From Gimesia maris (GTDB taxonomy: Bacteria > Planctomycetota > Planctomycetia > Planctomycetales > Planctomycetaceae), in contig NZ_CP042910.1 of NCBI RefSeq assembly GCF_008298035.1, positions 186,001 to 250,000 of the forward strand: 64,000 nt of DNA, read 5' to 3'. Below the pieces are notes generated by a model. The model was not told the origin of the DNA and made no database searches. It saw only the letters and a list, made by a program, of their open reading frames with translations. Shown here piece after piece: positions 7,926-64,000 of the stretch; positions within the stretch are counted from its first letter, which is position 1, and every line of letters begins with the position of its first letter. Position numbers and translations under genes: made by a program.

Positions 7926-8888
7926 TTAAAATTCGCCGAGAACATTTCCGTCTGCACGACAGCAGAGGTAGCGAAGCGTGTTGAAGTCCGCATTGGCTGA
8001 GACAAACCGGACGGCACCATCTCCGAGCAGCATGTGCGCGCCGCCGGTGTGCTGAGACTGAATGGGATTGTTACAGGCGTCGTTACCGATTCCTGTTCCC
8101 GTGTTCTGATAGCCGATGGGATAACGGAGTGTCGTTGTGTTGTAACAGCGCGGATCGTGATCAATGGGGGTGTTGGGACTCATCCAGGCACCATTGGCAT
8201 AAGCGGAACGAATATCAGTCTGGGCTCCACTTGCGTTCTTTCCCCAGCCAGATTGTTCGCCCACCATTGCGACATTGGACGTTCCATCCAGGAAATCGCG
8301 AATGCGGAATGATTGACGGAAGGTAAAGGAACCGCCATTGGAACGAATTCCTTTATTACTGAATCCCCCTTTGGAATAGGTGTCGTCCTGAATCTCATTA
8401 ATACCGGTTGCTCCGGAGATCAGGATATAGGATGAGATGAATACATTCGTAGTGGTACTACCGGTGGTGGCGGCGTAGCTTTGTGACAGCGCGCTGGAAG
8501 GGCAAGCCATATAAGGTGGTTTCGTATTATTAATGGCGGGTGAATTGGGCACACTGGAAGCGCCACCGAACCAGAAATAAGTACCTTCAAAGACCAGCTG
8601 GTTATAGACGTTTGCCTGATCGGCAAAGGGCAGGATGTGAATCCAGGCGGTAGGACCGTGGGTACCAAGCCCTCCGGGGGGAAACACACTATGGGTCTCA
8701 TGGTAGTTGTGTAATGCGAGACCGACTTGCTTCAGGTTGTTTTTACAGGTGCTGCGTCGAGCTGCTTCCCGTGCCTACTGAACGGCGGGTAACAGTAATG
8801 CAATCAGGATCGCGATAATCGCAATCACGACCAGCAATTCAATCAGCGTAAAGCCTCTTCTGGTGGATAATGATGGTGCGCTTGTCAT
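7926..8888 (-). pseudogene. DUF1559 prepilin-like protein interrupted by an amber codon
   Basis: From the ATG at 8888 the frame reads [19 protein letters not shown], a type IV prepilin-like N-terminus, then LLLPAVQ, and then meets TAG at 8775-8777 (codon 38) before continuing [18 protein letters not shown]. In the intact paralogue at 11388-12326 the same codon is CAG, giving the conserved QQAREAARR. The remaining frame is open to 7926 with normal DUF1559 features: [14 protein letters not shown] and [26 protein letters not shown] at 8687 could start a C-terminal fragment, but it would lack the export helix. A recent nonsense mutation, a sequencing error or amber readthrough would each explain this. 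DUF1559 proteins are exported pseudopilin-like proteins of unknown role. Confidence 0.85.
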
Positions 8889-48573: not shown

Positions 48574-51500
48574 ATGCGAATCAGCATCCTGTGGATCTCT
48601 CTATCGATATTGTATAGTTGCATGTTCTGTGTACTTGCAAGCGGGCAGGAAACAGATACCCAATCAGCCGCTCAGAGTGAGTTTAGCCCAGGCGAAGCCC
48701 ATTTAATTCCTGTCACTCTGCCTCCTGTCACACCGACAAACCTGGCCAGTGATCAAGCGAAGATAAAACTACCTGGTGTGTTCAGTCAAGTTGTTGTCGG
48801 CGGGAACGGCCGGTATCTGATTTTTTATCTGAAGAAGCAGAAGCAGCTGGCCGTATTCGATGTATCCGCAGCGAAGATCATTCAGCAGATTCCCATATTG
48901 TTTGACGATATCAGTGTTGCAGCAGGAGCAGACAAGCTCGTCGTTATATCCAGAGATCAGTTTCTCATCGCGCGCTATAGTCTGAAAACATTTGAAAAAG
49001 AGTTGACGCGTCCGTTTACCGTGGAAGGAAAGGGGCCTCAGTTGACCATGGGGTCTGCGTCCAACGGGCCGATTCTGGTTACGTTCGAAGGGGGTAGTAG
49101 AGGCGGTAATTTATTTCTGGATCTCAACACTCTGGAGAAAAGTCGTATTGATTTACCTTCCGACTGGGGCCGCACTCTCCATGATCATTCCATCGTACAT
49201 GCTGCTCCCGGCGGTCAGGTTTTTAGTATTTGTCGGAAAGGTACTTCTCCTCCCGGTTTGACTACAATCCGGATCCAGGGCAACACCGCTGAAGTAGCCT
49301 ACCGGCATGATACGTCAGGCGTGGCCGTTCCCAGTCGTAATGGGAGCCTGATGTTTAACGCGATGGGAATCTATGACCCGTTGCTCCGAGAGGTTGCGGA
49401 TGAAGCCTGTTTGAACTCCGGGATTCCTCCTGTCTACAGCGATTTTTATTTCGTGCGTGGAGCGAATGGTAAAACGTTCCAGTTGCATCGGGGAGGACAA
49501 TCGCGTCCCATCGCGACGATCGCTGCACCCGGTCCTGAGATTCTGCCTGTCGTCAAAGACAGATACGGTCGCACGACAGGGGGTGTCTCAAAGGATGCAG
49601 AATCTTTCCTGCGTTATTATTATATTGAGCAGGCGCAGGTGCTGATATATCTGCCTGACTCGAATGACGAAGTCGTACTGCAGCATTTCGATCTGGAACA
49701 GACGTTAGCGCAGACGGAACAGGACTATCTGTTTGTCAGCAGAGGCCCGAGCGGGCAGGCGACGCGAGACAAACGCTATGCCAGTCCCATTCAGGTGAGA
49801 ACCAGGCAGGGAAACGCCCGGTTTCAGCTGTCAGCGGGACCGGACGGGATGACGATTTCCTCCCGGGGCGTACTCGAATGGAAGGTGCCTCCTGATTTCC
49901 CGGACAGCCAGGTGAATGTCATTGTGAATATCAGTGATGCCACCGGCTATGAGCTGTTTCATGCGTTTTCAATTGCAGTCAACGGCGATCGGGCAATGCT
50001 GGCAGAAATTCCGAACGTTCCGCCGAAACCAGTTGTGAATCAGCCAGCGCGTGAAAACAGGAATCTCTTCACTCACGGTGGCAAAGGTGCGCTCGCGTTT
50101 CTCAAGTCTGCCAGCCAGTCTAAACCGGTATCGCCTGTGCAAGCGGAATCGAAACCGAATGACACACTCAAACCAGGGCAGAGCAAGATAGATCTGCCTG
50201 CTCCCCTGACAGACATGGTGGTGGGACGCAGCGGCCAGTATCTGATTATGTATTTTCAAAGCCTGAAAGAACTGAAAGTATTTGATGTTTCGAGTCTGAA
50301 ATTTATCAAAACTCTACCGGTGGAATCAGAAGACATTCTGTTTACAGCCGGCGCGGAGCATCTGATGGTCGTCCTGCGTGATCAGCAGAAAATCGAGCGC
50401 TGGAAACTGGATGATTTCCAACGCGACCTGGTCGTCGCTTCGCCGGTAGACAATCCGATTCACGCGGCGGTGATGGGGCATTCCTCCCGGGATCTGCTGG
50501 TTCTGTTTCATGGTCCGAATGATCGCACGCAGAATTTTGACTATGTCGACGTCCGCACGATGAAAGTGCTGGAAGTGGAGCGCAAAGGAGCGGGTTATCT
50601 CAGTTCCAGACCCCTGCTGTTAAAGTGTGTCACCGCGTCTGCAGACGGGCGTGTGGTGACGCTGGCAAACAATACGCTGATCTATCTGGAGTCGAAGGTA
50701 GAGCATCGCCAGAGCCCGCGTGACTATGGTTCTCTGATTCTGTCTGGCGGTGATGGTACTTTTCTGTACTCAGAACGGGGAATCATCACCAACCAGATGG
50801 AAGAAATCATTATGGCTGCAAAAGTGGGGGAGCCCGCACGGCCCATTCAGACAGGCATGCTGATTCCTGCGGTACAGCCCGGTTACGTTCTCGACCTCTT
50901 GTTGAAGACGCCACGAAATGCCAGGACGTCTGATGTACTGGCCGTTCATTTAGAAGGAGAACTGGAACCACTGCTGACGCTGAATCAGGTCGATACATCA
51001 CTCAACAAGTTCGAATGGAAAAATCCGCCGGGGATGTCGCATTATAAACGCTTCTTGTTTTTTCCGGATCGGGATCTTCTGATCCAGGTTCCTGATACCA
51101 ATGACAGGTTGGTTCTGCATCAGGTCCCGCTGCGCGAGCTGATGAACGAGACCGGAATCGATTATTTCTATACGACATCCCGGCCTGAGACGAAAACGGA
51201 ACCTGGTAAGCTCTGGAAATATCAGATTAAGACGGCTTCCCGCAAAGGGGGAGTAAAATATGAACTTCAATCCGGTCCCCAGGGAATGGAAATTTCGGAT
51301 ACCGGGCTGCTGACCTGGCAGGTTCCCGCCGACATTGTGGAACCTGAATTGAATGTCATAGTGCAATTGAAAGATGATTCTACACAACAACTGTCGCATC
51401 GCTTTACGCTGTTTGTTCCTGATGCAATTCGGAGTGCGCAGGAACAACTTCGAAAGGAGCAGGAACGGGCAGAAGCTGAAAAGAAAATGGCGGCAGCCCG

Positions 51501-52509
51501 CGAGGCAGCGGCGCGCGAAGCAGAACGGCTTGCGGCTCGCGAGGAACAGAACCGAAACAAGTTAAAACGGTTAACTGAGAGTGGTGAAGCAGCCCGAACG
51601 CAGGTGGAACAATACCTGACAGATCGATTGCAAAGTTATGAAAAAGAACAGTCAGTACGCAAATTGCAGGGATACCGGATCCCCGGGCAGGAAACAAATC
51701 CGTACCGTGCCTGGACAGATACCAGCGAGAACGAAATCGACGCACGACTGATCAAGTACTTTGCTGATACAGTGATTCTGTATTCCCGGTCAAACCAGAT
51801 CCTGACGATTCCGGAGGAGAGTTTGAGCAAGGTTGACCGGGATTACCTCGATCAAATTTCAAAAGCGGAAATTGCGGAACGGAAGCAGCGTGAAAAGGAA
51901 TTATCGGATCGCAGTTTGCCGAAGCAGCGGATGATACAACTCTGGCTGGCAACACAGGAAACTCCCAGCCGCTTCGGTAAAAAAAATCTGCTGGGAAACA
52001 TTCAGGACAAGCAGGGCAAGCCGCTGTTGAGCTGGCGGGTACAGTTGCTGAAGCATGTCAGGGGAGGCAGTGACCTGTATTCCCTGTTCCGTCATGATGA
52101 GCCCTGGGACAGTGAGTACAATAAAAAACTGATTCCCCTCATGCCCGCTTTTTACGGATCTTCCCGGTCCAAAGCAGGTCCAGGGAAAACCAACCTGCTG
52201 GCGATTCAGGCGCAGCGTCCGCTGTTTTCCGGTCCCGGAGGAGCCAGCCTGTTTCACAAAGGAGAGCTGCCGGGCCAAACGGCCATCATAGTGGAAGCAC
52301 CTGATGCTCTAGCCGTCGAATGGACGAAGCCCGATGACTGGGAGTATGAATCAGACAAATCCATCGAGCAACTGTTCGGATTTCATCCGGACGGTTTTTA
52401 CGCGTTATTTGCAGATGGAAAAGTCGAGTTGATTTCCGAGAAGAAGCCTCTGAACGAGATCAGCACGCTGCTGAATCTCAAAAATGAACCCGCGAAAGAT
52501 TCCCCATGA
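48574..52509 (+). CDS. Array paralogue A: two propeller/Ig modules, SHD1, DUF1559-C
   Basis: This 1311-residue exported protein has a signal peptide (about 1-24, ending near ASGQ). Module one (about 38-470) starts GEAHLIPVTLPPV and has VVVGGNGRYLIFYLKKQKQL, VFDVSAAKIIQQ, ISRDQFLIARYSL and MGSASNGPILV, and closes with an Ig-like domain (DGMTISSRGVLEWKVPPDF). Module two (about 535-948) has MVVGRSGQYLIMYF, IERWKLDDF and another Ig-like domain (GMEISDTGLLTWQVPADI). Then come a charged helix (about 948-1010), an SHD1 domain (AWTDTSENEIDARLIKYF, about 1044-1100) and a DUF1559-type C-terminal domain (LLSWRVQLL, HDEPWDSEYNKKLIPLMPAF, GKTNLL, DGFYALFADGKVELIS). The function is unknown. It begins the array. 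Confidence 0.8.
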   Translation: MRISILWISLSILYSCMFCVLASGQETDTQSAAQSEFSPGEAHLIPVTLPPVTPTNLASDQAKIKLPGVFSQVVVGGNGRYLIFYLKKQKQLAVFDVSAAKIIQQIPILFDDISVAAGADKLVVISRDQFLIARYSLKTFEKELTRPFTVEGKGPQLTMGSASNGPILVTFEGGSRGGNLFLDLNTLEKSRIDLPSDWGRTLHDHSIVHAAPGGQVFSICRKGTSPPGLTTIRIQGNTAEVAYRHDTSGVAVPSRNGSLMFNAMGIYDPLLREVADEACLNSGIPPVYSDFYFVRGANGKTFQLHRGGQSRPIATIAAPGPEILPVVKDRYGRTTGGVSKDAESFLRYYYIEQAQVLIYLPDSNDEVVLQHFDLEQTLAQTEQDYLFVSRGPSGQATRDKRYASPIQVRTRQGNARFQLSAGPDGMTISSRGVLEWKVPPDFPDSQVNVIVNISDATGYELFHAFSIAVNGDRAMLAEIPNVPPKPVVNQPARENRNLFTHGGKGALAFLKSASQSKPVSPVQAESKPNDTLKPGQSKIDLPAPLTDMVVGRSGQYLIMYFQSLKELKVFDVSSLKFIKTLPVESEDILFTAGAEHLMVVLRDQQKIERWKLDDFQRDLVVASPVDNPIHAAVMGHSSRDLLVLFHGPNDRTQNFDYVDVRTMKVLEVERKGAGYLSSRPLLLKCVTASADGRVVTLANNTLIYLESKVEHRQSPRDYGSLILSGGDGTFLYSERGIITNQMEEIIMAAKVGEPARPIQTGMLIPAVQPGYVLDLLLKTPRNARTSDVLAVHLEGELEPLLTLNQVDTSLNKFEWKNPPGMSHYKRFLFFPDRDLLIQVPDTNDRLVLHQVPLRELMNETGIDYFYTTSRPETKTEPGKLWKYQIKTASRKGGVKYELQSGPQGMEISDTGLLTWQVPADIVEPELNVIVQLKDDSTQQLSHRFTLFVPDAIRSAQEQLRKEQERAEAEKKMAAAREAAAREAERLAAREEQNRNKLKRLTESGEAARTQVEQYLTDRLQSYEKEQSVRKLQGYRIPGQETNPYRAWTDTSENEIDARLIKYFADTVILYSRSNQILTIPEESLSKVDRDYLDQISKAEIAERKQREKELSDRSLPKQRMIQLWLATQETPSRFGKKNLLGNIQDKQGKPLLSWRVQLLKHVRGGSDLYSLFRHDEPWDSEYNKKLIPLMPAFYGSSRSKAGPGKTNLLAIQAQRPLFSGPGGASLFHKGELPGQTAIIVEAPDALAVEWTKPDDWEYESDKSIEQLFGFHPDGFYALFADGKVELISEKKPLNEISTLLNLKNEPAKDSP

Positions 52510-52534
52510 TCCGAAATAATCGGACTGTTTTTTT
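52510..52534 (+). terminator. Weak intrinsic terminator or attenuator after paralogue A
   Basis: TCCGA (52510-52514) and TCGGA (52520-52524) form a 5-bp stem right after the stop, followed by a T-run (52528-52534). The stem is short, so partial termination between paralogues A and B is more likely than a full stop. Confidence 0.5.
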
Positions 52535-52587
52535 ATCCGTTATCAGTATTCATATAAATTGAGTTTCCAGATCAAAGGAACAGCCAC

Positions 52588-55500
52588 GTGAATTCCACTT
52601 TGCTGCGAATGTCACTACTGATTGCCTTCAGTGCGCTCATCTGCTGTGAAGTGGCAGCACAGAAAACGACGAAGCCGGGCGAAGCTCATCTGGCTCCGGT
52701 GAATCTGCCTGAAATTACAGTTCCCAAGATCGAGCCGGACCAGGTGAATGTCAAACTGCCAGGTGCCTGCACTGAGCTCGCCATTGGCGGTGGTGGGCGC
52801 TATTTTGTATTTCACGTTCCAGGTAAACGACAGTTGATTGTGTTCGATGTTTCCCAACTCGAAGTTGTGAATACATTGAGAATGAGTTCCGATAATTTCT
52901 GTTACACCGCGGGTGCCGACAAGCTGGTTATCGTGTATCGCGATCAAAACAAGATCCAGAGCTATCAACTGCCTGGTCTGAAAGAGGAGCAGTCGCAAAC
53001 TCTGCCCGCCGATTTGAAAGTCGCCCATATCACCATGGGAGCCGCATCTAACGGTCCCATTTTACTGGGTTCTGATAAAGCGCAAGGGGCGTGGCAGTTT
53101 CTGGATCTGGAGACACTCGGTCCTTCATCAGTTCAGATTTCGTCCGAGTGGGAACTGAATCATGCTGACCGGTGTGATGTTGAGGCTTCAGCCGATGGTC
53201 GCGTTTTTGGTATCTGCAAGAGGCATGCCTCACCATCGGGGTTGTTGCGGGTGGCGATCATAGGGAACACGGTAGAGACACGTTACCTGGATCAAACCTG
53301 GGGAACGGTATTTCCCAATAAAGATGGCAGCAAGCTGTGTAACCTGACGGGGATTTACGATCAGGAGCTTGAAAAAATCGATGAATTTAAAAACCTGATC
53401 GGCGGGTATCTGCCTTGTTTCAGTGATTTTTATTTGTATCCACATGGCGGTAGAGGAAATCCCTATTCGGTTCTTCTGCCAGGATTGAATAAACCATTAC
53501 TCACTGTGACGGGACCTGGACCTGAAATATCCCCGGCGGTCCGGCATGTTGTCCTGCCCCAAGGGTACCGCGCTGATGTCAATACGCCCGGCTACCCGCG
53601 GCGATTTTACATCGAGCAGGCGCAACTGATGATGTTTGTTGCAGAGACGAATGATTCGATTGACGTACGTCCTCTGAATATTGTCGAGAGACTGAAAAAA
53701 AACGGAAGAGTTCACTTCTATGTTTCGCGTTCCCCTGCGGATGTCGCATATCGGGGCGAATTATACGAGTCTGAAATCGAAGTGAAGTCCGTTGATGGTG
53801 AAGTCAAGGTGGAACAGATTCTGCCTCCCCCTGGGATGACGGTTACCCCGGAAGGCAAGATTCGCTGGCAGGTACCTGAGGATTACGGCGTCGACTTGTC
53901 TCACATCACTGAGCAGATCGAACTCAAGTTTAAGGTCTCTGATCCTTATGGAAGAGAGTCAGTCATTCAAACGAAGCTGAATATCAGGGAGAAACCTGTC
54001 CATTTTGAGATTCTGCCTTTGACGGCAGCTGGTCAGGCAGGAGAAACGCATCTGAGGCCAGCCATTTTACCTGAAATCAGCGCGTCTGCTTTTCAAGGCG
54101 ATCGTGCTGTTATCAAACTGCCGCGCCCCTTCAGTCGTGTCATCTCAGGGGGCGGCGGTCGCTATCTTGTCTTTTATCTACCGGATATTCGTCAGCTGGC
54201 GCTGTTTGATGTTTCCCGGGCCCGCGTTGTGAATTACATGACCGTGAAGTCCGGTATTGTCTCCTTTGCCGCCGGTGCTACCAAACTGGTCGTGCTCAAT
54301 CACAGTCAGCGAATCATCACGCGTTATGAACTTTCGACATTTAAGAAAGAGTTCGCGCGGCGGATCCCGGTGGAGGGGAGCGTTGTGCAACTGGCGCTGG
54401 GGGCCGCTTCCAATGGTCCCGTTTATGTCGGCTCCGTGAAGACCGGGGACCGGCGTCGCCGCGTTATGCTCAACAGTTTTCTGGACCTGGAATCTCTGGA
54501 ATTGATTGAACTGGAATCAGAGCGTCCTCCAGTCATCCCACTGGGAGATACCAAAGGCTTTTATGTACATGCTTCAGCCAACGGGAAGGTCTTTGGAGTC
54601 AGTCTGCGGGAGAAGGATGGTTGGGAAGGAGTGACTTACGAAGTTGACGGGAAACAGTTGAAAACAGTGCCCCTGAAAAAATCTTACGGGCCGATGATTC
54701 CCGGTCCTGACGGCAATCATATATTTGCCAGTGGCGTGGTCATGAACAGGGTTTTGATGCCCGTCTATCAGGACCTGAAAAGCATGTATCCTTCTTCAGA
54801 TCCAAACCTGCTGGTGCAGCGGGTAAGAACTACGAAACGCGATGTCAAGATTTACGTGACTGGCGAAACAGAGCCGATAGCCACCATCCCTGATGTGTGG
54901 GAGAAAGGGTATGGGTCATACCAGTCGATGATGGGTTCCGACGCGAGATACATGAATGCGTATTATATTCCCCAGGCAGAAACTCTGGCCTATCTACCTG
55001 AAACGAAAAGTCGAATTCATCTGCATCGAGTCAAACTGGATCAGTTATTAAAGAATCGCAAGGATGATTACTTTTTCACTCAGAGCCAGCCTGTCAAGAC
55101 TGCTGCGCGCGGCGAGAAGTATGAATACAAGCTCGAAGCCAAATCTAATCAGACCCCGTTAACGTACCAGATCGATTCCGGACCCGAAGGTATGTCGGTT
55201 TCCCCCGCCGGAGTGGTGAGCTGGGCTGTTCCGCACGATTTTAAGAACGATCAGACGTCAGTGATTGTTTCGGTATCCAATTCGACAGGCAAGTCTCTGT
55301 ATCATTCCTACCTGCTCTCCCTTACCGGGAAAATACCAGCAGGGTCCACTGCGCCGAAACCGCAGCCGCTTGCGAAAATGGATTCCAAATCTGTCTGGGA
55401 ACGCCTTAATGGTTCGACCCAGGTGACCCTGCCGAAGCTGAAGGCAGTTCAGTTTGAGGGAAAACAGAAAGAGCTCACACTGCCTGCTGAAATCACAGAT

Positions 55501-57840
55501 CTCGTGGTGGGGGGAGGCGGCCGCTATCTCATCTTGTATTTTAAAACACTGCATCAGCTGGGAATCTTTGATACGTCCCGGGCAGAAATCGTCAAATTTC
55601 TACCGGTTAATTCTGAGAAGGTAATGTTTGCAGCGGGCGCAGAACACCTGCTGATTGTTGATCCCGAGAAAAAAATTCTGGAACGCTGGAGCCTGAAGAC
55701 GTTTCAGCGCGAAGCGACTGCTTTGCTTCCCATTCAGGATCCGCTGGAAGGAATCGCAATCGGGAATGCTTCTCGGGGGCCATTGGTTGTATTTGTGCAC
55801 AGTCATGACCCGTTCTACTTTGTCGATCCCGTTTCGATGCAGGAAGTGGATCTGGTCACCTTACATGAACTGTTAACTCCTGATGTGAATCTCGAATCAT
55901 CGGCAGACCGTATACAGAGGAGATTACGGGAGCGAAAGCTGAATCGGAGGCATGTCACTGATCATTTTAACGGAACGGATACGATTTCGGCAGATGGTCG
56001 TCTGGTTGGTATCAGATTCGGAGCGCTGGATGTGACTGGTCCCGTATACGATTGGCGTTCACTTAAAAGCCTGGGCTGGAAGTTATTACCGAATGCCTCT
56101 GGCTCACGGTTTTATACAGAGGCTGGAATCTTCGATACCGAGATGAAGCAAATCGGAAAGCAGAATCGCATCAGGCATATCCCGGCGGTTCAACCTGGTT
56201 ATTATCTGACGGTTCAAATTCACAATCACGGAAGTCGAAAACCACCTCAGGATCTGACGCTGCAGATTGAAGATGGGCAGAATCCCCAATTTCCGTTACC
56301 TGATATAGATGTGACCCAGTGTTTTGGCACGTTGCCCGATTTGGTTCCGTCATTTGAAAAGCGCTATACCTACATTCCAACTGCTGATCTGCTCGTGCAA
56401 ATTCCGATTACAAATGACAGATTGATCCTGCATCAAGTTGAAATCGACAGTCTGCTGGAAGAATCAGGCGAAGATTATCTCTACGTGACCTCGTTTGCTC
56501 CGGCAACAGGAAAGATCGGTACGCGCTGGGAGTGTCAATTTTCCGCGAAATCAAAACAGCAGGTCTCCTATCACCTGGAAACGGGACCTGAGGCTATGAC
56601 TGTTTCTCCAACCGGATTGATGACATGGGATATTCGCCCTGGTATTACCATTTCGAAAGTTCCGGTCCTGGTACGGTTGCAAAGTCAGTCCGGTAAGGAA
56701 TTGTACCACAGCTTCACAATCACGATTCCCGAAGCCTATAAAAATGCCCGCGAGCAGGCAGAGCTGGCGGCGAAGCAGAAGGCAGCAGAAGCGAAAGCGA
56801 AGCGGGAACAGGAGATTGCGCTGGCGGCAAAAGCAGTTGAGGCATCGCATGCCACCGAAAACCGAATGAGGCTGATCAAGTTGAAAAGAGAAGGGTCGAC
56901 CGCGAAGGATAAATTAGAAACAGAAGCAAAACTGTGGTTGAAACGCCAGCAGGAAAAACAGGGATTGCAGACGATTCCGTATCGTCTCTGGTCTGACGCG
57001 GACGGTAATCAAATCGAGGCACAACTGGTGCAGGTGTTTGGCGGAATTGTGAAAGTACGTCTTAAAAGTGATCCGCAAAACAGTTTGCGTTCGCGAAATA
57101 CGAACCCAAAACCGGAACTGATGAGCTTTACTCTGAGTGAACTCTCTTCAACCGATCAGAAGTATGTGCGAAATTATTCCGCTGCTCAAAGAGAGAAACG
57201 CGAACGTCCGGAGACGGCCGCAGAGCGACAGGAAAAATTCAGACGACAGTTACAACTGGTGGCAGCTTCAATCCGATCGCAGTCTCAGCGGTCGATTGGT
57301 TTTCCGCCTGCTTACTCCGTGGACCGGTTTGCAAGTGGCGTGCTGAAGGACAGGCCGATGCTGAGCTGGCGCGTGCATCTGCTGCCGTACCTGGGAGGGG
57401 CCGACCTCTATAATCTCTTCCGCCAGGACGAACCCTGGAACAGTGACTACAACAGGCGGCTGATTGCCCTGATGCCGTCTTTCTACCAGGCTCCCGGTTC
57501 CACCGCCGGAGAGGGAAAGACGAATCTGCTGGGCGTGAAAGGCAAGGATTGCATTTTTGTCGGGAAAAATGAAGTGCGGTCTCACTATGTCAGCGACGGA
57601 CTGGCTAATACGGCGATGGTGGTTGTTGTGCCGGATGAGCTGGCAATCGAGTGGACCAGGCCCGATGACTGGGAATATGCGGCGGAAAAAAAGATCAAAG
57701 ATCTGTTCAGCGCGGGATCGGATGTGTTCTGGTCTATCTTTGCTGACGGAAGTGTCAGGTCGATCTCGAATCAGAATTCTCTGAGTGATATTTCTCGAAT
57801 ATTTACCATCCGTGACGGGCAGCCTGTCAAGCTGAAATGA
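52588..57840 (+). CDS. Array paralogue B: three propeller/Ig modules, SHD1, DUF1559-C
   Basis: This 1750-residue protein starts with GTG, placed 8 bases after AAAGGA, and has a signal peptide (LLIAFSALICCEVAAQ). It is the longest complete member. Modules one (about 30-467) and two (about 484-912) open with GEAHLAPVNLPEI and GETHLRPAILPEI and contain GAASNGP. Module three (about 940-1380) is of the other type (DLVVGGGGRYLILYF, ERWSLKTFQREA). The Ig-like ends read MTVTPEGKIRWQVP, MSVSPAGVVSWAVP and MTVSPTGLMTWDI. A helix of alternating charge (about 1381-1460) follows, then SHD1 (YRLWSDADGNQIEAQLVQVF) with an insert, then the C-terminal domain (MLSWRVHLLPYLGGADLYNL, DEPWNSDYNRRL, GKTNLLGV). The stop overlaps the next ATG. 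Confidence 0.8.
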   Translation: MNSTLLRMSLLIAFSALICCEVAAQKTTKPGEAHLAPVNLPEITVPKIEPDQVNVKLPGACTELAIGGGGRYFVFHVPGKRQLIVFDVSQLEVVNTLRMSSDNFCYTAGADKLVIVYRDQNKIQSYQLPGLKEEQSQTLPADLKVAHITMGAASNGPILLGSDKAQGAWQFLDLETLGPSSVQISSEWELNHADRCDVEASADGRVFGICKRHASPSGLLRVAIIGNTVETRYLDQTWGTVFPNKDGSKLCNLTGIYDQELEKIDEFKNLIGGYLPCFSDFYLYPHGGRGNPYSVLLPGLNKPLLTVTGPGPEISPAVRHVVLPQGYRADVNTPGYPRRFYIEQAQLMMFVAETNDSIDVRPLNIVERLKKNGRVHFYVSRSPADVAYRGELYESEIEVKSVDGEVKVEQILPPPGMTVTPEGKIRWQVPEDYGVDLSHITEQIELKFKVSDPYGRESVIQTKLNIREKPVHFEILPLTAAGQAGETHLRPAILPEISASAFQGDRAVIKLPRPFSRVISGGGGRYLVFYLPDIRQLALFDVSRARVVNYMTVKSGIVSFAAGATKLVVLNHSQRIITRYELSTFKKEFARRIPVEGSVVQLALGAASNGPVYVGSVKTGDRRRRVMLNSFLDLESLELIELESERPPVIPLGDTKGFYVHASANGKVFGVSLREKDGWEGVTYEVDGKQLKTVPLKKSYGPMIPGPDGNHIFASGVVMNRVLMPVYQDLKSMYPSSDPNLLVQRVRTTKRDVKIYVTGETEPIATIPDVWEKGYGSYQSMMGSDARYMNAYYIPQAETLAYLPETKSRIHLHRVKLDQLLKNRKDDYFFTQSQPVKTAARGEKYEYKLEAKSNQTPLTYQIDSGPEGMSVSPAGVVSWAVPHDFKNDQTSVIVSVSNSTGKSLYHSYLLSLTGKIPAGSTAPKPQPLAKMDSKSVWERLNGSTQVTLPKLKAVQFEGKQKELTLPAEITDLVVGGGGRYLILYFKTLHQLGIFDTSRAEIVKFLPVNSEKVMFAAGAEHLLIVDPEKKILERWSLKTFQREATALLPIQDPLEGIAIGNASRGPLVVFVHSHDPFYFVDPVSMQEVDLVTLHELLTPDVNLESSADRIQRRLRERKLNRRHVTDHFNGTDTISADGRLVGIRFGALDVTGPVYDWRSLKSLGWKLLPNASGSRFYTEAGIFDTEMKQIGKQNRIRHIPAVQPGYYLTVQIHNHGSRKPPQDLTLQIEDGQNPQFPLPDIDVTQCFGTLPDLVPSFEKRYTYIPTADLLVQIPITNDRLILHQVEIDSLLEESGEDYLYVTSFAPATGKIGTRWECQFSAKSKQQVSYHLETGPEAMTVSPTGLMTWDIRPGITISKVPVLVRLQSQSGKELYHSFTITIPEAYKNAREQAELAAKQKAAEAKAKREQEIALAAKAVEASHATENRMRLIKLKREGSTAKDKLETEAKLWLKRQQEKQGLQTIPYRLWSDADGNQIEAQLVQVFGGIVKVRLKSDPQNSLRSRNTNPKPELMSFTLSELSSTDQKYVRNYSAAQREKRERPETAAERQEKFRRQLQLVAASIRSQSQRSIGFPPAYSVDRFASGVLKDRPMLSWRVHLLPYLGGADLYNLFRQDEPWNSDYNRRLIALMPSFYQAPGSTAGEGKTNLLGVKGKDCIFVGKNEVRSHYVSDGLANTAMVVVVPDELAIEWTRPDDWEYAAEKKIKDLFSAGSDVFWSIFADGSVRSISNQNSLSDISRIFTIRDGQPVKLK

Positions 57841-59270
57841 ATGATAGAAAGATTTCAGGTATGCGATTACCAGTGATATTCCTGACCCTGACGATCATGA
57901 TTCTTTGCGGGAGCAGTGCCGTTCCCGGTGTGAAGGGTGAGGCCTGGGCGGCTGAAGACACGGCGTCCCTGTTTCAAAAGTACAAGGGCGAACAGCAGGA
58001 GATCAAGCTGCCGGAGAAGGTGACCGATGTTGTGCTGGCGGGGAGCGGACGCTACCTGCTGATTCAGATGGGAGCGGCGAAACAGCTGGCCGTGTTTGAT
58101 GTGAACCAGGCAAAGATTATCAAGACGTTGCCGCTGATTTCCGACAAAGTGAAGATTGCCGCGGGGGCCGAGAAATTTATCGTCATCGACTCGGACCAGC
58201 ACATCATCGAACGCTGGTCGCTGACGACATTTGAACGCGAAAAAGTCAGCCAGACGCCATTTTCCGGAATCCTGAAAGCAGTGGGGATGGGTTATGCATC
58301 TCAGGGACCTTTCGTGGTGCGCTTTGCAGAGGAGGAAGATTATGACGCCAAGACCGGATGTCTGCTGGTTGATTTAGAGACGCTGGCGCCCGTGCCCGAC
58401 CTCACGTTTCGCCAGAGAATGGGTTTTCCGCGGAACAGGGAAACCATGAGAATCCGCGCTTCGGCAGGGGGAGAGCTGTTTGGGATTTCCACAGTCAGAA
58501 GGGATCGTGAAAGCCATCTCTGGGTTCTGGATGGTAAGAAAGTGAATAATTACCGTTCCTACAACTTGGAATTTATACGACCGCTGCCTGATGCGTCTTA
58601 TGTTTTAACCCGGTACGGTCTCTTTACGCGAGAACTGTTTTATCGAGGCAATGAACGTGGCAAAGAGGCGCAATATGTCACGACACTGCATCCAGCCTTC
58701 TATCTTGAGGTTCCTTATTTTAGTCGGGATAAAACGGGAACGTCATCAGGTTCCGATTATTTCGGCATTCTGTATTTAACGGAGACCGGACAGCGTATCG
58801 CCAATCTGCCTTTGAGTCCCCTGAATCTGGAGCAGGATGAGAGCAAGTACGGAGAACCCGAATTCGCCCCTGAATTCAGTCTTGATAAACGGTTGGTTTA
58901 TATTCCCCAGGCCGATCTGTTGCTGACATTTCCCTACACAAATGATCGAATGCTGATGACTCCCATTCAACTGCAAGCTGAACTGAAGAAGCGGGGAACG
59001 GACTATCTGTTTATTTCATCGCTGCCGCCAAGTCATTGTCAAAAAGGCAAAACGCTTGAGTATTCACTGCAAGTAGAATCCAGCTCCAGTCAGTTTGAGG
59101 TCGAACTCAGCGCGGCTCCGGAAGGGATGAAACTGATTGACAGTAAAAAACTCCGCTGGGAGGTTCCGGAATCTTTTGATGATGATGAGGTGTTTGTGGT
59201 CATCACAGTAAAAGCAAAAGGTGATCAGACGGAGTTCCAGACATTTCGTCTGGAGGTCCAGGATCGCTGA
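57837..59270 (+). CDS. Array paralogue C: single propeller/Ig module without tail
   Basis: This 477-residue protein overlaps paralogue B by 4 bases (ATGA), so translation is coupled. It has a signal peptide (LPVIFLTLTIMILCGSSAVP) and one module of the second type: VVLAGSGRYLLIQMG, QLAVFDVNQAKIIK, IIERWSLTTFEREKV and GMGYASQGPFVV. It ends with the Ig-like domain (PEGMKLIDSKKLRWEVPESF) and stops at the point where other members continue into the helix, SHD1 and C-terminal domain. It may be a free version of the module or a decayed full-length paralogue; the frame is intact. An ATG at 57861 is a possible alternative start. Confidence 0.75.
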   Translation: MNDRKISGMRLPVIFLTLTIMILCGSSAVPGVKGEAWAAEDTASLFQKYKGEQQEIKLPEKVTDVVLAGSGRYLLIQMGAAKQLAVFDVNQAKIIKTLPLISDKVKIAAGAEKFIVIDSDQHIIERWSLTTFEREKVSQTPFSGILKAVGMGYASQGPFVVRFAEEEDYDAKTGCLLVDLETLAPVPDLTFRQRMGFPRNRETMRIRASAGGELFGISTVRRDRESHLWVLDGKKVNNYRSYNLEFIRPLPDASYVLTRYGLFTRELFYRGNERGKEAQYVTTLHPAFYLEVPYFSRDKTGTSSGSDYFGILYLTETGQRIANLPLSPLNLEQDESKYGEPEFAPEFSLDKRLVYIPQADLLLTFPYTNDRMLMTPIQLQAELKKRGTDYLFISSLPPSHCQKGKTLEYSLQVESSSSQFEVELSAAPEGMKLIDSKKLRWEVPESFDDDEVFVVITVKAKGDQTEFQTFRLEVQDR

Positions 59271-59329
59271 CGGTCAGGTCAACCTGGTATGAACAACGTG
59301 AAACATTTTCTGAATCGATAATCAGTGCT

Positions 59330-61774
59330 ATGAGTAAAACGCGATTTCTTCCATTGATAAAAGGAACGGCCAGTATGCATTGCTTGAGGAGATGGGGCGG
59401 GCTGATGGTTCTGCTGGCTTCGCTATTCAGTGGGCTGGCAGCAGCACGGGCGCAGGTGGAGTTGCCTGAGCTGACACCCGTTCGCTTTTCTGGTGACCAG
59501 AAAGAAGTCCGGCTGCCGGCTGACGTGGATGATCTGGTTGTCGCTGCTGGGGGACGCTACCTGATTCTGAAACTGGAAGCGATCCGGCACCTGATCGTGT
59601 TCGATACGGTCAAAGCGGAGATCATCAAGTATCTGCCCCTGCCTTCCAGGGGGTGCTTTTTCGCGGCCGGTGCCCGCTGTCTGGTGGTATTGTCGCCTGA
59701 GAAAAAGACGATCGAACGCTGGGACCTCACTACATTCAAGCGGGAGCAAGTGGTCCCCGTTCCCTTTCCTGAGAAAGTGGTCCAGATGGCGATGGGACAT
59801 GCATCACCGGGACCGCTTGTATTTCTGGTTTCGGCGGGGACCAATAACCAGAGTTGCAAATTCATGGACCCGAATACGCTGCAGTTACTGGAGCTGCAGC
59901 AGTTCATTGAGCCTGAAAAAGCGGTTGAGGAGACAGATTCGCGTCGCAGTCGACTCATGTCACGACGGAGGGAAGAGCAGAGCATCCCGAAATATCTGAA
60001 ATCGATTCACCCCTCTGCGAATGGCCAGCTTGTCGCGACCGATTACTGCATGATGATGGTGACCGGGACGAGTGTCGGTTATCGTTTAAATCGCAATTCC
60101 GGTCTGCCTGATGCAGCGGGCAATCTGTTATATGCACCCAAGTCTGTTTATTCTGTTGGTCAGGATCAGTCGAGCGTGTTAAGCGAGTGGGGAATTCCCT
60201 ATCCCGCAGTTCAGCCGGGCCTGTTCTTTGTGTTACATACGCGCAACAGAAATATGAACGCGCCGCAGTCCGGGATCGTACTGCGGATCGCCAATTATCC
60301 CAAGTTGCTGTTTCCCCTCGGGAAGGTCAATACCGAATTAAGTATCAAAAGAGACGATTTTAAAGTACCGGAGGAAAAACGGTTTACATTTATTCCTGAT
60401 GCGAAACTGCTGATCCAGGTTCCCAATGTTGCTGACAAGCTGATTCTTCACAAAGCGGATTTGGAAGCGATGCTGAAAAATTCGCAGGACGATTATGCTT
60501 ATGTCACCTCGATCCCTCCCAATACGGCTGCCTTGGGACAAACCTACCAGCATCAGTTGACAGTGAATTCGAGCAGGAAAGTCAAGTTCGAGTTGACGAA
60601 TGCTCCTGAGCAGATGACGATTTCCGATTCCGGCCTGATCTCGTGGAAGGTGCCGAATGAATTTTCCAGTCCGGTTGTACCGGTAGAGGTTCAGCTGGAG
60701 ATGGAGTCGGCATTGAAAACGAAGTATGCGTTTTTAATTAACATCTCAAAGATCGTTGTAGATATGGCTCAGAACAAAGAGCTGGCAGCCGCAATGAGGG
60801 ACAAAGCACGCCAGGAACGGATGCAGGAGTCGAATGACAAACGGCTTCAGTTGATGCTTGCGAAATTAAAAGAATCCGGTCCCCGGGCAAAACAGCTGGC
60901 AGAAAACAATGCACTTGGCTATCTGAGACGGCTGGAGGCAGACGAAAATCGAAAACAGAGTGCTCCTGTATTACGGACCTGGAGAGATGTCTCAGGCAAT
61001 GAACTGGATGCGCAAATGCTTGAAGTCTTTGCAGGTAGAGTGAAACTGAAAAGTAATTCGTCGGGTGAGTATGATATCCCCCTGAATGAACTGAGTGCCG
61101 TTGATCAGAAATACATTCGGGAAATCACAGCGGCTGCACGCGAAGCACAGAAAAAAACGAAAGCTGCTGAGTCGCTGGCCTTTTCTCCCCATTTGCAGAT
61201 GCGTCAGGTTTATGCCGGGCTGCAGAGAAGTTTGCAAGAGCTGCGAGGAAGATTTATCAGTGCCCGTTCGCGTTCCAGAGAAGGAGAGCCACTGTTGAGC
61301 TGGCGCGTCCAACTGCTGCGGTATAACGGGGGCGGCGACCTGTATAAACTCTTTCGTCACGATGAACCCTGGGACAGCGAATACAATAAACGCCTGATTC
61401 CGCTGATGCCCGCCTATTACCGCACGCCGAACTCCAAAGTGGACGAGGGGAAAACCAACCTGCAGGTTGTCAGCGGAGAACATTGCCTGTTTAAAGACAG
61501 TGGCTCGGTTGGACTGACCGAGGTCACAGATGAGCTGGGACAGACGGTAATGCTGGTAGAAGTACCCGATAAACTGGCGGTCGAGTGGACCAGGCCGGAT
61601 GACTGGGAATTCACATCCGAGGCGGCAATCAAAGACCTGTTCGGGTTTCATCCGGACGGATTTTTTGCCTTGTTTGCGGATGGGGCTGTGAATTTCATCT
61701 CCAGCGAAAATTCATTGAGCGATATTTCCCGGGCGTTCAAACGCGATGACGGCGGAAAGGTAGAGTTGAAATGA
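59330..61774 (+). CDS. Array paralogue D: one propeller/Ig module, SHD1, DUF1559-C
   Basis: This 814-residue protein carries the minimal complete architecture. The first ATG is 59330, but an ATG at 59375, 9 bases after AAGGAAC, gives 799 residues and a neater signal peptide (GGLMVLLASLFSGLAAARAQ). The single module is of the second type (DLVVAAGGRYLILKLE, IERWDLTTFKREQVV, MAMGHASPGPLVF) with an Ig-like end (QMTISDSGLISWKVPNEF). Next come a charged helix, SHD1 (RTWRDVSGNELDAQMLEVF, then YDIPLNELSAVDQKYI) and the C-terminal DUF1559-type domain (LLSWRVQLLRYNGGGDLYKL, HDEPWDSEYNKRLIPLMPAY, DGFFALFADGAVNFIS). The last is very close to paralogue A. The function is unknown. Confidence 0.8.
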   Translation: MSKTRFLPLIKGTASMHCLRRWGGLMVLLASLFSGLAAARAQVELPELTPVRFSGDQKEVRLPADVDDLVVAAGGRYLILKLEAIRHLIVFDTVKAEIIKYLPLPSRGCFFAAGARCLVVLSPEKKTIERWDLTTFKREQVVPVPFPEKVVQMAMGHASPGPLVFLVSAGTNNQSCKFMDPNTLQLLELQQFIEPEKAVEETDSRRSRLMSRRREEQSIPKYLKSIHPSANGQLVATDYCMMMVTGTSVGYRLNRNSGLPDAAGNLLYAPKSVYSVGQDQSSVLSEWGIPYPAVQPGLFFVLHTRNRNMNAPQSGIVLRIANYPKLLFPLGKVNTELSIKRDDFKVPEEKRFTFIPDAKLLIQVPNVADKLILHKADLEAMLKNSQDDYAYVTSIPPNTAALGQTYQHQLTVNSSRKVKFELTNAPEQMTISDSGLISWKVPNEFSSPVVPVEVQLEMESALKTKYAFLINISKIVVDMAQNKELAAAMRDKARQERMQESNDKRLQLMLAKLKESGPRAKQLAENNALGYLRRLEADENRKQSAPVLRTWRDVSGNELDAQMLEVFAGRVKLKSNSSGEYDIPLNELSAVDQKYIREITAAAREAQKKTKAAESLAFSPHLQMRQVYAGLQRSLQELRGRFISARSRSREGEPLLSWRVQLLRYNGGGDLYKLFRHDEPWDSEYNKRLIPLMPAYYRTPNSKVDEGKTNLQVVSGEHCLFKDSGSVGLTEVTDELGQTVMLVEVPDKLAVEWTRPDDWEFTSEAAIKDLFGFHPDGFFALFADGAVNFISSENSLSDISRAFKRDDGGKVELK

Positions 61775-61862
61775 ACGTGCTTGATCAATCCAACGAAGAG
61801 CGGGCTGTTTCGAAGAGGGACTCTGGTTCCCTGGCTCTGATGAGATTTGACGGGGTGATGTC

Positions 61863-64000
61863 ATGCGGTTGATTCCAATACGGTTATTCTGTTTTGTAAC
61901 GGGCCTGGTCTGCTGCCTCGGTTCATCAGGGGGACAGGAGAAAGAGACGCCGTCGAAAACACGGATTCATGCCAGCCGCATTCAGGAAAATGTCGCGCGG
62001 ATCTACCGCGAGATGCCCGGCCTGGAGCCATCAGCGTCGCGCAGCAGAATCACGGACGGAGAACCGGGGAAAGCGCACCTGGTGCCGGTGACACTGCCTT
62101 CGATTCTGCCCGCCCGCTTAAAGGAAGCGAAAACGACGGTGCAGCTGCCTTCCGAATTCAGTGATGTTGCCGAAGGGGGCGGCGGGCGGTTTCTGATTTT
62201 CTATCTGAAAAAACTCAATCAGCTGGCCGTATTTGATGTGTCCGCGGCCCGGATTATCAAATATCTGCCTCTCGATGCGGAAGATGTAGCGATTGCCGCC
62301 AGCGCGGACAAGCTGCTGGTTGTGGCGCGCGATAAAGGTTTTATCCGACGCTATGACCTGTTGACTTTCGAGCAGGAACTGACAAAGCCGTTACCGGAAC
62401 CGGACATGTTCTACAGAATCGCAATGGGCTCTGCGTCGAATGGTCCCTTTCTGCTGTGTAGCGGAGAACAACTCCCTAAACAATGGGTGCTCTATGATCT
62501 GGCAACGCTGGAGCCCAATGGAATGCAGGTTGAAGCAGATCGCTTCGATGTCCGCGGGGGCCGCGAACTGCTGCTCCGTGCTTCAGCCAACGGGCGTCTG
62601 TTTACACTGCATGATCTGCATCATGCAGCAAGTATCGTGGTGGGCCAGAAATCGATCACGAAGCATTTCAATACCCATTCCGGCGGCTATCCCTTTCCCA
62701 GCGCGGACGGTAAAACCATTTATCTGAATGGGAAAGTTTACAACCGCGAAATGAAACCCCAGGCTTCGCCTTTCAAGTTACCAGGTATTCCAAGCAGTAC
62801 CGGCGATTTCTTTCTGACGCGTGGCGATGACGCGAAGAGTTCTACTTTGCAGATCATGCAGCCAGGTAATCCCGAGCCTCTGGTATCCGTTCCTGACATT
62901 GGTGAGCCGACACAGGGGCCTTATTACGCGCTATGGAGAGGGCGTGAAAATGGTTACCGGTTGTATTTCGTGCCCGATGCTAAAATGCTGATCTTTCTGC
63001 CCCTTGATAATCGCCAGATTGAGCTCCACCGGTTCGATTTTGAACAGGCCTTGAAGAAGTCTGGTAAGGATTATCTGTTCCTGGCCAGTCGTCCTCCTTT
63101 AACCGTTGCGCGGGGAGCCACTTATACTTACCAGGTCAACGTGAACAGCAGTCCGGCAAAGGTGAAATACACAATGACTATCGGCCCGGAGGGGATGACC
63201 GTGAGCCCCGAAGGACTGGTGAAGTGGCAGGTCCCCCACGACTTTGCCGGAAAACAGACCGAAGTTGTGCTGACCATTTCCAATGAGGCAGGCAAGGAAG
63301 TTCTGCAGACCTGCAAATTAGGAATCGAGGGAGAGAATACTGCTCCCGAAACCGCGTCTAAAGAAGCAGTGACCTCTCCCGATGCAGATATCAGCACAGC
63401 GACGAACTCTACGGAAATGCCTGTTATTAAACCGGTTTCATTCAAGGAAGATCAGAAGCAGATCCAACTGCCGGCACCGATGACCGACCTGGTGGTGGGC
63501 GGGGGCGGACGCTATCTGATCATGTATTTAAAAAATCTGAAGCGGCTGGCAGTCTTTGACTGTTCCCAGGCAGCCATCGTGAAGTACCTCCCTGTCGATT
63601 CAGAAGATGTTCTGATCGCGGCCAGCGGATATCATCTGATCGTCCTGCTTCGCGATAAGATGTTAATCCAGCGCTGGAATTTAAAGACACTGCAGCGCGA
63701 ATTGATGATCCCCGCGCCCACCACGGTTCCGGTGGGAGGGATGGTAATGGGCAGCGCTTCACAAGGACCTCTGGTGCTGATCTGTGATACGGGGCCGTCG
63801 TTCCTGTTTCTTGATCCGAATACCATGCAGCCGATCGAGCTGGAATTGATGCGCGGATCGGACAGGAACCGTGGTACCTATCGTGGCGTCGAGTCGCGTT
63901 ATTTGAAATACGCGCATGCGTCGGCAAATGGTCGGGTGATTGCTGTCGGAGAGACGATTCTATTACTGAATGACATGACTTATGAGAGACGTCTCAGTCC
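61863..64000 (+). CDS. Array paralogue E: first two propeller/Ig modules (partial)
   Basis: The frame is open from ATG 61863 to the window end (712 codons so far) with no stop. It begins MRLIPIRLFCFVTGLVCC, a signal peptide. Module one opens with GKAHLVPVTLPSI and has GGGGRFLIFYLKKLNQLAVF, VARDKGFIRRYDLLTF and MGSASNGPFLL, ending with an Ig-like domain (GMTVSPEGLVKWQVPHDF). Module two, of the second type, starts near 63460 with LVVGGGGRYLIMYLKNLKRL, IQRWNLKTLQRELM and MGSASQGPLVL, and is cut by the edge. The tail with SHD1 and the DUF1559-type domain should lie beyond the window. It is closest to paralogue A in module one. Confidence 0.8.
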   Translation, partial: MRLIPIRLFCFVTGLVCCLGSSGGQEKETPSKTRIHASRIQENVARIYREMPGLEPSASRSRITDGEPGKAHLVPVTLPSILPARLKEAKTTVQLPSEFSDVAEGGGGRFLIFYLKKLNQLAVFDVSAARIIKYLPLDAEDVAIAASADKLLVVARDKGFIRRYDLLTFEQELTKPLPEPDMFYRIAMGSASNGPFLLCSGEQLPKQWVLYDLATLEPNGMQVEADRFDVRGGRELLLRASANGRLFTLHDLHHAASIVVGQKSITKHFNTHSGGYPFPSADGKTIYLNGKVYNREMKPQASPFKLPGIPSSTGDFFLTRGDDAKSSTLQIMQPGNPEPLVSVPDIGEPTQGPYYALWRGRENGYRLYFVPDAKMLIFLPLDNRQIELHRFDFEQALKKSGKDYLFLASRPPLTVARGATYTYQVNVNSSPAKVKYTMTIGPEGMTVSPEGLVKWQVPHDFAGKQTEVVLTISNEAGKEVLQTCKLGIEGENTAPETASKEAVTSPDADISTATNSTEMPVIKPVSFKEDQKQIQLPAPMTDLVVGGGGRYLIMYLKNLKRLAVFDCSQAAIVKYLPVDSEDVLIAASGYHLIVLLRDKMLIQRWNLKTLQRELMIPAPTTVPVGGMVMGSASQGPLVLICDTGPSFLFLDPNTMQPIELELMRGSDRNRGTYRGVESRYLKYAHASANGRVIAVGETILLLNDMTYERRLS

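Follow-up and report, generated by a model that had tools for sequence, protein, structure and literature searches.

Nine genes encode an array of mostly modular proteins

The window analysed here is a stretch of 64,000 nucleotides from Gimesia maris, comprising bases 186001–250000 of a single-contig genome of 7.82 Mb (G000). Its 3' end is occupied by an array of large modular genes, which we followed past the window edge by reading the stretch after it (L002). The array consists of nine genes on the same (+) strand: eight module genes, A to H, that together encode 12 copies of a module pairing a propeller-like part with an immunoglobulin (Ig)-like end, and a ninth gene, I, for a putative membrane protein (Table 1). 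It ends at window-equivalent base 72572, and the window edge cuts it within gene E. A preliminary description of the window had counted five same-strand genes. All five open reading frames (ORFs) are present, but the fifth, gene E, is truncated by the window, and the module genes F, G and H as well as gene I continue beyond it. The intergenic gaps from A to I measure, in order, 78, −4, 59, 88, 18, 4, 93 and 107 bases, with the start of gene C overlapping the end of gene B by 4 bases. These small gaps make it likely that the array is read as one or a few transcripts.

Table 1. Coordinates of the array, its parts and related features. Positions refer to the window unless a locus name precedes them.
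Feature	Position	Strand	Remarks
Gene A	48574..52509	+	1311 aa: predicted signal peptide, type I, type IIa, helix, SHD1-like, DUF1559 head
Module A1, type I	48697..49998	+	propeller + Ig-like, modelled
Module A2, type IIa	50131..51438	+	
Gene A tail	51697..52473	+	SHD1-like, then DUF1559 head, without prepilin helix
Gene B	52588..57840	+	1750 aa: I, I, IIa, helix, SHD1-like, DUF1559 head
Module B1, type I	52681..54009	+	
Module B2, type I	54043..55353	+	
Module B3, type IIa	55405..56748	+	
Gene B tail	56968..57807	+	SHD1-like by alignment only, + DUF1559 head
Gene C	57837..59270	+	477 aa: predicted signal peptide + single type IIb module (57954–59267)
Gene D	59330..61774	+	814 aa: type IIa module (59453–60763), helix, SHD1, DUF1559 head
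Gene D long helices joining module and SHD1	60746..60958	+	model residues 473–543, pLDDT ~53–77
Gene D SHD1 domain	60959..61135	+	28.2 bits, cut-off 23.7; strand-rich in model
Gene D DUF1559 head	61217..61738	+	31.7 bits, cut-off 23.3; poorly modelled
Gene E, in-window part	61863..64000	+	runs 1837 bases past window
Gene E, whole	L002:2863-6837	+	1324 aa: I, IIa, helix, SHD1-like, DUF1559 head
Module E1, type I	62070..63344	+	
Module E2, type IIa, first part	63399..64000	+	rest beyond window
Genes F–I	L002:6856-13572	+	F 394 aa, G 493 aa (type I), H 599 aa, I 681 aa
Two-module gene	L061:9246-12251 (G000, L061_12); L060:9451-12456 (G014, L060_7)		similar neighbours in both
Locus-filling proteins	L090:7422-11474; L091:3927-8048; L092:5432-9433; L095:11125-15228; L096:11050-15183		1333–1377 aa
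Clusters of DUF1559-like-head proteins with zinc-ribbon/GYF-like starts	L101:3163-6964; L102:4416-7160; L098:1966-4942		by eye

The modules are homologous and fall into three types

The 12 modules cut from the array proteins (A1, A2, B1, B2, B3, C1, D1, E1, E2, F1, G1 and H1) are all related. Each of the 66 pairs is matched by blastp, the weakest at E 1.6e-18 and so well above chance level, and identity is 24–38% in 55 of the 56 pairs that align over at least 350 residues. A quick tree and two more careful ones divide the modules into type I (A1, B1, B2, E1 and G1), type IIa (A2, B3, D1 and E2) and type IIb (C1, F1 and H1). Support in the first tree was 1.000 for IIb and 0.991 for IIa, and both groups were retained in the two later trees. 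Only two types had been recognised before: the former type I (A1, B1, B2 and E1), to which G1 is now added, does separate from the rest, but the former type II is in fact two groups. Likewise, the proposed rule that type I modules are always followed by one type II module describes A, B and E, but not C, D, F, G and H, which have a single module each. The tail, in which helices lead to an SHD1-like stretch and then to a DUF1559 head, had been assigned to A, B and D; it is present there but also in E, and so in four of eight module genes rather than three of five. Within the array, this tail comes after each of the four IIa modules and after none of the three IIb modules. Module F1 is without part of the propeller middle. 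The columns that are invariant among the modules (glycines, together with a P-x-x-M motif and a Trp of the Ig end) look structural from the alignment, and no enzyme-like set of residues stands out.

Structures were predicted with AlphaFold for the type I module A1 and for gene D, which carries a type IIa module, while type IIb was judged by homology. The A1 model has a pLDDT of 83.3 and a pTM of 0.82. For gene D, whose input alignment comprised 13 rows taken from the window and from L070 only, the mean pLDDT is 66.7; it reaches 89–95 over residues 51–150, which form the first blades, approximately 79–93 in the Ig domain and 78–85 in SHD1, and is mostly below 50 in the DUF1559 head. Both models show a propeller and then an Ig-like domain rather than unrelated folds, which indicates that types I and IIa share their fold. 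The middle blades of the models are incomplete and less sure, and the blade number is taken from the matched structures: WD40 propellers, which top the VIA-align matches and which we take to be seven-bladed, suggest that the module propeller probably has seven blades as well. In sum, the models support a propeller, probably of WD40/YVTN-like kind, with an Ig fold for types I and IIa. The earlier view, in which modular and putatively exported paralogues combine a propeller-like part with an Ig-like terminus, is upheld by the homology of all pairs and by the models of A1 and D.

The top Foldseek match of both models (E 9.1e-11 and 6.2e-13) is 1L0Q, an archaeal YVTN/PKD surface-layer protein in which a propeller is likewise followed by an Ig-like (PKD) domain. 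TM-scores for these matches are 0.19–0.37, with rmsd above 20 and 10% identity (TM 0.34–0.37 and rmsd 21 for the match at E 6.2e-13), and 1L0Q differs further from the array in being archaeal and in that the SHD1, DUF1559 and zinc-ribbon parts of the array are not known there. Further Foldseek matches are to varied propellers, mostly of WD40 type, but also to IFT-A and COPI chains, hydrazine synthase and galactose oxidase. VIA-align gives Z-scores of 16–18.6 to WD40 propellers over approximately 250–290 residues; for both tables, a family that is not among the matches listed is not thereby excluded. At the sequence level, the propeller part matched no Pfam or NCBIfam family above cut-off (Pfam covering A to I, and NCBIfam the same proteins without C). 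The weak Pfam matches, all under cut-off, are to the COPA/B, Aladin and WDR35 propeller models. The Ig end of gene E matches He_PIG (PF05345) at 22.4 bits, just under the cut-off of 24, and the Ig ends of the array resemble this family but are joined to a propeller. A PDB sequence search with the module gave no useful relative (best E 0.045), and a scan of viral sequences found no relative. The component folds are known, and their combination is new.

Some of these matches recall the membrane-coat-like proteins of the Planctomycetes–Verrucomicrobia–Chlamydiae (PVC) group, which combine a propeller with a C-terminal stack of helix pairs, as described in PMC2799638. Array proteins of this kind would bend or line internal membranes. 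Weak COPA/B matches by Pfam, the IFT-A and COPI chains among the Foldseek matches, and the fact that the coat-like proteins are likewise planctomycete propeller proteins (same source) all point in this direction. Against this, the array shares the N-terminal propeller but not the C-terminal helix stack: an Ig domain comes after the propeller in both models and in the 12-module alignment, and in gene D it is followed by two long helices, the SHD1 stretch and the DUF1559 head. Pfam also reported no HEAT or TPR family in A to I. We did not retain the array as a member of this group, and regard a coat-like role as very improbable.

Two giant frames of the same genome also touch on the module. The regions G000:C1:2508274-2518002 and 3331311-3341924 correspond to frames of approximately 12,618 and 12,114 codons for giant repeat proteins, both of which contain stretches matching the Ig end.

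Tails carry DUF1559 heads, and two members are putative membrane proteins

The four tails (A, B, D and E) align with one another, the row of D starting inside the SHD1 stretch. Their heads match DUF1559 (also SBP_bac_10, PF07596) above the Pfam cut-off of 23.3 bits, barely in A (23.7) and more clearly in B (32.7), D (31.7) and E (31.0), and gene I, which has two DUF1559 heads, scores 113.8. For SHD1 (PF03983, cut-off 23.7), gene D passes at 28.2 bits, A and E remain under at 18.0 and 16.0, and B gives no match at E ≤ 1; a genome-frame search scored A at 23.6–24. The SHD1 and DUF1559-like tails of the preliminary description thus hold for DUF1559, but SHD1 exceeds the Pfam cut-off only in D. 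The tail profile matches 2HBP, the SHD1 structure of yeast SLA1, only weakly (E 0.023). The ligand motif of yeast SLA1 SHD1 is NPFX(1,2)D, and no such motif occurs in A to I, which are bacterial proteins. Across the whole genome we find 152 matches to DUF1559 and four to SHD1, two of the latter in the array.

DUF1559 forms a very large family of paralogues, and Planctopirus limnophila has 68 of them, two being essential (PMC10632474). The heads of A, B, D and E differ from the pilin-like DUF1559 proteins in that they end large chains, and the 80 residues preceding them contain no prepilin-signal or helix motif, unlike the canonical P0001. By hydropathy, A to G have no membrane-like stretch past residue 45, and hydropathy and sequence together suggest signal peptides, and hence export, for these seven proteins. 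The N-termini of H and I each carry two CxxC pairs and then one membrane-like stretch starting near residues 80–97. The ribbon of gene I is of MJ0042 type and above cut-off, whereas that of H gives only a weak match; an NCBIfam match of H to GltJ (E 0.005, with 16 bits against a cut-off of 450) is a lead only, on which a literature search gave nothing. Inspection by eye and by motif showed, at other places in the genome, further membrane or lipobox proteins that combine DUF1559-like heads with zinc-ribbon or GYF-like starts, which makes gene I one of a recurring kind.

Many relatives outside the genus carry a protease domain

We assembled 39 module proteins from outside the genus, 15 of which come from 11 of 12 loci and 24 from 24 of 25 new loci of a class search; a locus where no module ORF was called (L107) and one with a stop in the matched frame (L064) lie outside this set. 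In 24 of the 39 (6 + 18), an N-terminal trypsin-like domain, recognised by shared sequence or with a home-made profile, is joined to one module. Pfam reports Trypsin_2 above cut-off in all six protease-fused relatives scanned, the best NCBIfam match of the protease part is DegP/HtrA in both of the two scanned (under the full-length cut-offs), and the H-D-S triad is kept in 19 of the 24 domains. Several families of the class have HtrA-like proteases with a propeller–Ig arm. Those from L110–L131, where 18 of 24 called module proteins are HtrA-like, have an unnamed middle domain in 17 of 18 cases, and one genome (G067) has four trypsin-like plus module genes in tandem (L057:4619-14649), one of which keeps the catalytic triad. 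SHD1 is carried by four further proteins (L056_3, L059_6, L059_7 and L128_1), above the Pfam cut-off in three of them and at 23.0 bits against 23.7 in L059_6. In L062_10, L069_9 and L112_1, which belong to another taxonomic family, the module is preceded by two CxxC pairs and a membrane stretch; the best ribbon match among these three is MJ0042 in L069_9, at 15.2 bits against a cut-off of 20.9. In the remaining eight, the module is accompanied by other parts or by no known one. He_PIG is above cut-off at the module ends of L056_3, L062_10, L112_1 and L126_1.

No trypsin-like domain was reported by Pfam in array proteins A to I. The array had been described as having no known function; its modules do go unnamed by Pfam and NCBIfam above cut-off, but homologous modules sit behind an HtrA-like protease domain in many other planctomycetes. 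In HtrA proteases, it is the C-terminal PDZ parts that choose or sense the substrate. The fusions scanned have the propeller–Ig arm in the place of the PDZ, and this replacement makes proteins or peptides the most likely binding partners of the module. A search of the literature, covering titles and abstract starts of open-licence PMC articles, gave no match for the array or for planctomycete HtrA–propeller fusions.

The same relatives could be taken to indicate a sensor or regulator set, wherein the modules would sense envelope damage or peptides, H and I would relay the signal to the cytoplasm, and the HtrA-fused cousins would answer the same signal by proteolysis. Such a set would fit the joint occurrence of CxxC pairs, membrane stretch and module, which H shares with three proteins of another family, as well as the HtrA-like partner of the module in relatives. 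However, output domains, such as a kinase or a sigma/anti-sigma domain, were not reported in the array, and the cytoplasmic part would comprise a ribbon of approximately 40 residues and a linker only. We consider a sensory role unlikely, and the proteolytic answer of the cousins equally so.

The array is old, selected and patchy

A module search at E 1e-20 of 17 genomes of the genus, including G000, found the module in four: G000, G006 and G009, which have the array, and G014, which has only a two-module gene that is also present in G000. The product of this gene is a tail-less protein of 1001 aa that bears a lipobox and has a single module each of type I and type IIa. The array itself is thus patchy, being found in three of the 17 genomes. 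In G009 it is reduced to B (without its tail), G, H and I, which may reflect loss or an older state. In G006 it is spread over two contigs that end inside the array, and H and I were not seen there. More widely, the module is found in 13 of 392 phylum genomes and 63 of 397 class genomes, G000 being in both tallies; only four candidates per genome were scored, so these counts may be low.

The neighbours of the array were labelled katG-like, sulfatase-like and SGNH-like by reading their ORFs by eye. The SGNH-like gene has an orthologue at 77% or more in nine of the 17 genus genomes (G000 counted), and a 20-kb stretch around it lacks the array in all seven besides G000 and G009. In five of the seven (G014, G012, G013, G008 and G005), a protein of 1333–1377 aa fills the array locus; the two scanned of these five consist of a thioredoxin domain and many HEAT repeats. 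The G009 array adjoins the SGNH-like gene, but on its opposite side. As the array is absent or replaced in relatives, its locus must be a variable one. A functional swap between the array and the HEAT/thioredoxin protein was considered and rejected: the module and tail profiles matched none of the five locus-filling proteins, and we take the replacement to be a coincidence of a variable locus.

In a tree of 51 modules (two G006 rows are partial), each module of the array clusters with its positional counterpart from G006, G009 or both, at a support of 100/99 or 100/100. Module order thus predates the split from these relatives, and the arrays are co-linear. Module shuffling, which had been proposed for the array, is contradicted by this pairing of positional orthologues and can be rejected at the depth tested. 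Estimates of dN/dS (NG86) are 0.185–0.300 for array genes in 11 comparisons and 0.108–0.155 for three neighbours; these are rough values, as dS is near 1 in several comparisons. The array genes are under purifying selection. We conclude that the array is real, old, selected and patchy, and that its propeller–Ig family is unnamed by the libraries searched; its function is predicted.

Compared with G006, the DUF1559 heads of A, D and E are 85, 77 and 80% identical, and the propellers of the same genes 64–76% (75% in D), so conservation in these proteins is highest in the heads, though by a margin of just 77 against 75 in D. The propellers of B, F and G are 67–82% identical, apart from 74 residues of B3 that reach 93%, and identity is 59–76% in SHD1 and 45–63% in the helices. 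In the tail-less B of G009, the propellers of the first two modules keep 71–72% identity and the IIa module 50%, in this one case as if the constraint on the IIa module went with its tail. The tail-less IIa modules that persist in the two-module gene speak against such a link.

Two further explanations depend on these observations. Tandem-duplicated paralogues could be kept as a matter of gene dosage, with no special joint role, and the patchy array, the smaller G009 set and the variable locus would suit such an artefact. It is made improbable by the age of the modules, the same positions of modules in relatives and the purifying selection. Surface-layer or adhesive fibre proteins are a better candidate, although still a doubtful one. 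Here the tandem propeller–Ig beads would extend outwards, on the pattern of the archaeal YVTN–PKD surface-layer protein, and attach to neighbouring cells, surfaces or polysaccharide. The preliminary description had also suggested an envelope or surface role, which is plausible, with 1L0Q as the top match at low TM, but we see no direct sign of fibres or adhesins. In its favour are that top match for both models, the one to three modules per chain, a patchy occurrence in the genus such as surface proteins have, and selection somewhat looser than in three neighbours (0.19–0.30 against 0.11–0.16). Against it are the TM-scores and rmsd of the 1L0Q matches, dN/dS values far below 1, the proteases on many relatives outside the genus, and the outcome of the Pfam and NCBIfam scans (NCBIfam without C), which reported no surface-sorting domain.

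A possible recognition and scaffold set of the cell envelope

Our preferred reading, which we advance tentatively and at rather less than an even chance, is that the array encodes envelope proteins for recognition or scaffolding that lack a protease, with H and I as tethers and the DUF1559 heads for docking. The soluble proteins would be exported across the inner membrane to a periplasmic or surface place and form a non-catalytic set, in which each module gene supplies one to three recognition modules composed of a propeller and a He_PIG-type Ig domain. These modules would bind protein or peptide partners and, being without a protease, would serve as the beads of a complex for scaffolding or capture. 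Protein H and its neighbour I may sit in the inner membrane with their zinc-ribbon-like ends in the cytoplasm, and thereby tether the set. The SHD1 stretches and DUF1559 heads of A, B, D and E could dock the soluble members to one another; alternatively, the two heads of gene I or the many DUF1559 pilin-like proteins of the cell might be the docking targets, a guess prompted by shared domains and by the conservation of the heads.

Several observations weigh against this reading, or against parts of it. Ligand, partners and location of the array proteins are predicted at most, the Foldseek matches include enzymes, and a fold in common does not reveal a function. The replacement of PDZ is judged from six protease-fused relatives, in which no PDZ was found at E ≤ 0.1, and the loci outside the genus are best-scoring matches, which makes the partner shares biased rather than population shares. 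The zinc ribbons assigned to H, L062_10, L069_9 and L112_1 are based on CxxC pairs, with no ribbon match above cut-off in these proteins by Pfam or NCBIfam (NCBIfam only for L069_9). DUF1559 has been called a solute-binding protein family tied to salt and cold shock in PMC2754498, and the head of D is not confidently modelled; docking via DUF1559 is accordingly a conjecture. Tail-less IIa modules persist in gene B of G009, L060_7 and L061_12, and show that the tail is not needed. Finally, the array may descend from a protease form, given that the IIb modules fall together with one module of a protease fusion and one mid-domain protein (tr_L120, L108; 99/94) in a second tree, whose class-search rows exclude matches shorter than 350 residues. 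A single clade of all 14 array-type modules is nevertheless not rejected (p-AU 0.175), and the tree is unrooted. We claim neither that the array is one clade nor that it is derived from a protease fusion.

A bolder version of the recognition and scaffold reading, which we think unlikely, is a previously undescribed envelope machine in which propeller–Ig recognition arms, freed from an HtrA-like protease and strung together, would be locked to the inner membrane by membrane proteins with zinc ribbons, while DUF1559 pilin heads without their former helix would serve as connectors to the very numerous DUF1559 proteins of planctomycetes. If true, this would give a concrete role to soluble DUF1559 heads. 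The array joins two planctomycete puzzles, the DUF1559 paralogues and the exported propeller proteins, on one chain, and its DUF1559-bearing propeller chains adjoin a membrane partner (I) with the same head, so that both roles can be tested together. The HtrA-like proteases with a propeller–Ig arm where a PDZ is expected provide a second testable subject.

Composition and other features of the window

The GC content of A to I is 0.505–0.539 and their GC3 0.536–0.633, as compared to 0.52–0.568 and 0.58–0.64 for eight neighbours. Recent horizontal gain was considered on this basis and is not adopted: the array values overlap those of the neighbours or lie slightly below them, which is not decisive. 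Promoter-like sites were rarer than in shuffled sequences and are uninformative. Terminator-like sites exceeded the shuffles (34 against 15.6, and 17 against 11.1) but were mostly inside genes, and one weak site lies directly 3' of gene A. Elsewhere in the window, a DUF1559 match with one internal TAG was found on the − strand at 7983–8780, of which the ORF at 7926–8687 covers part only.

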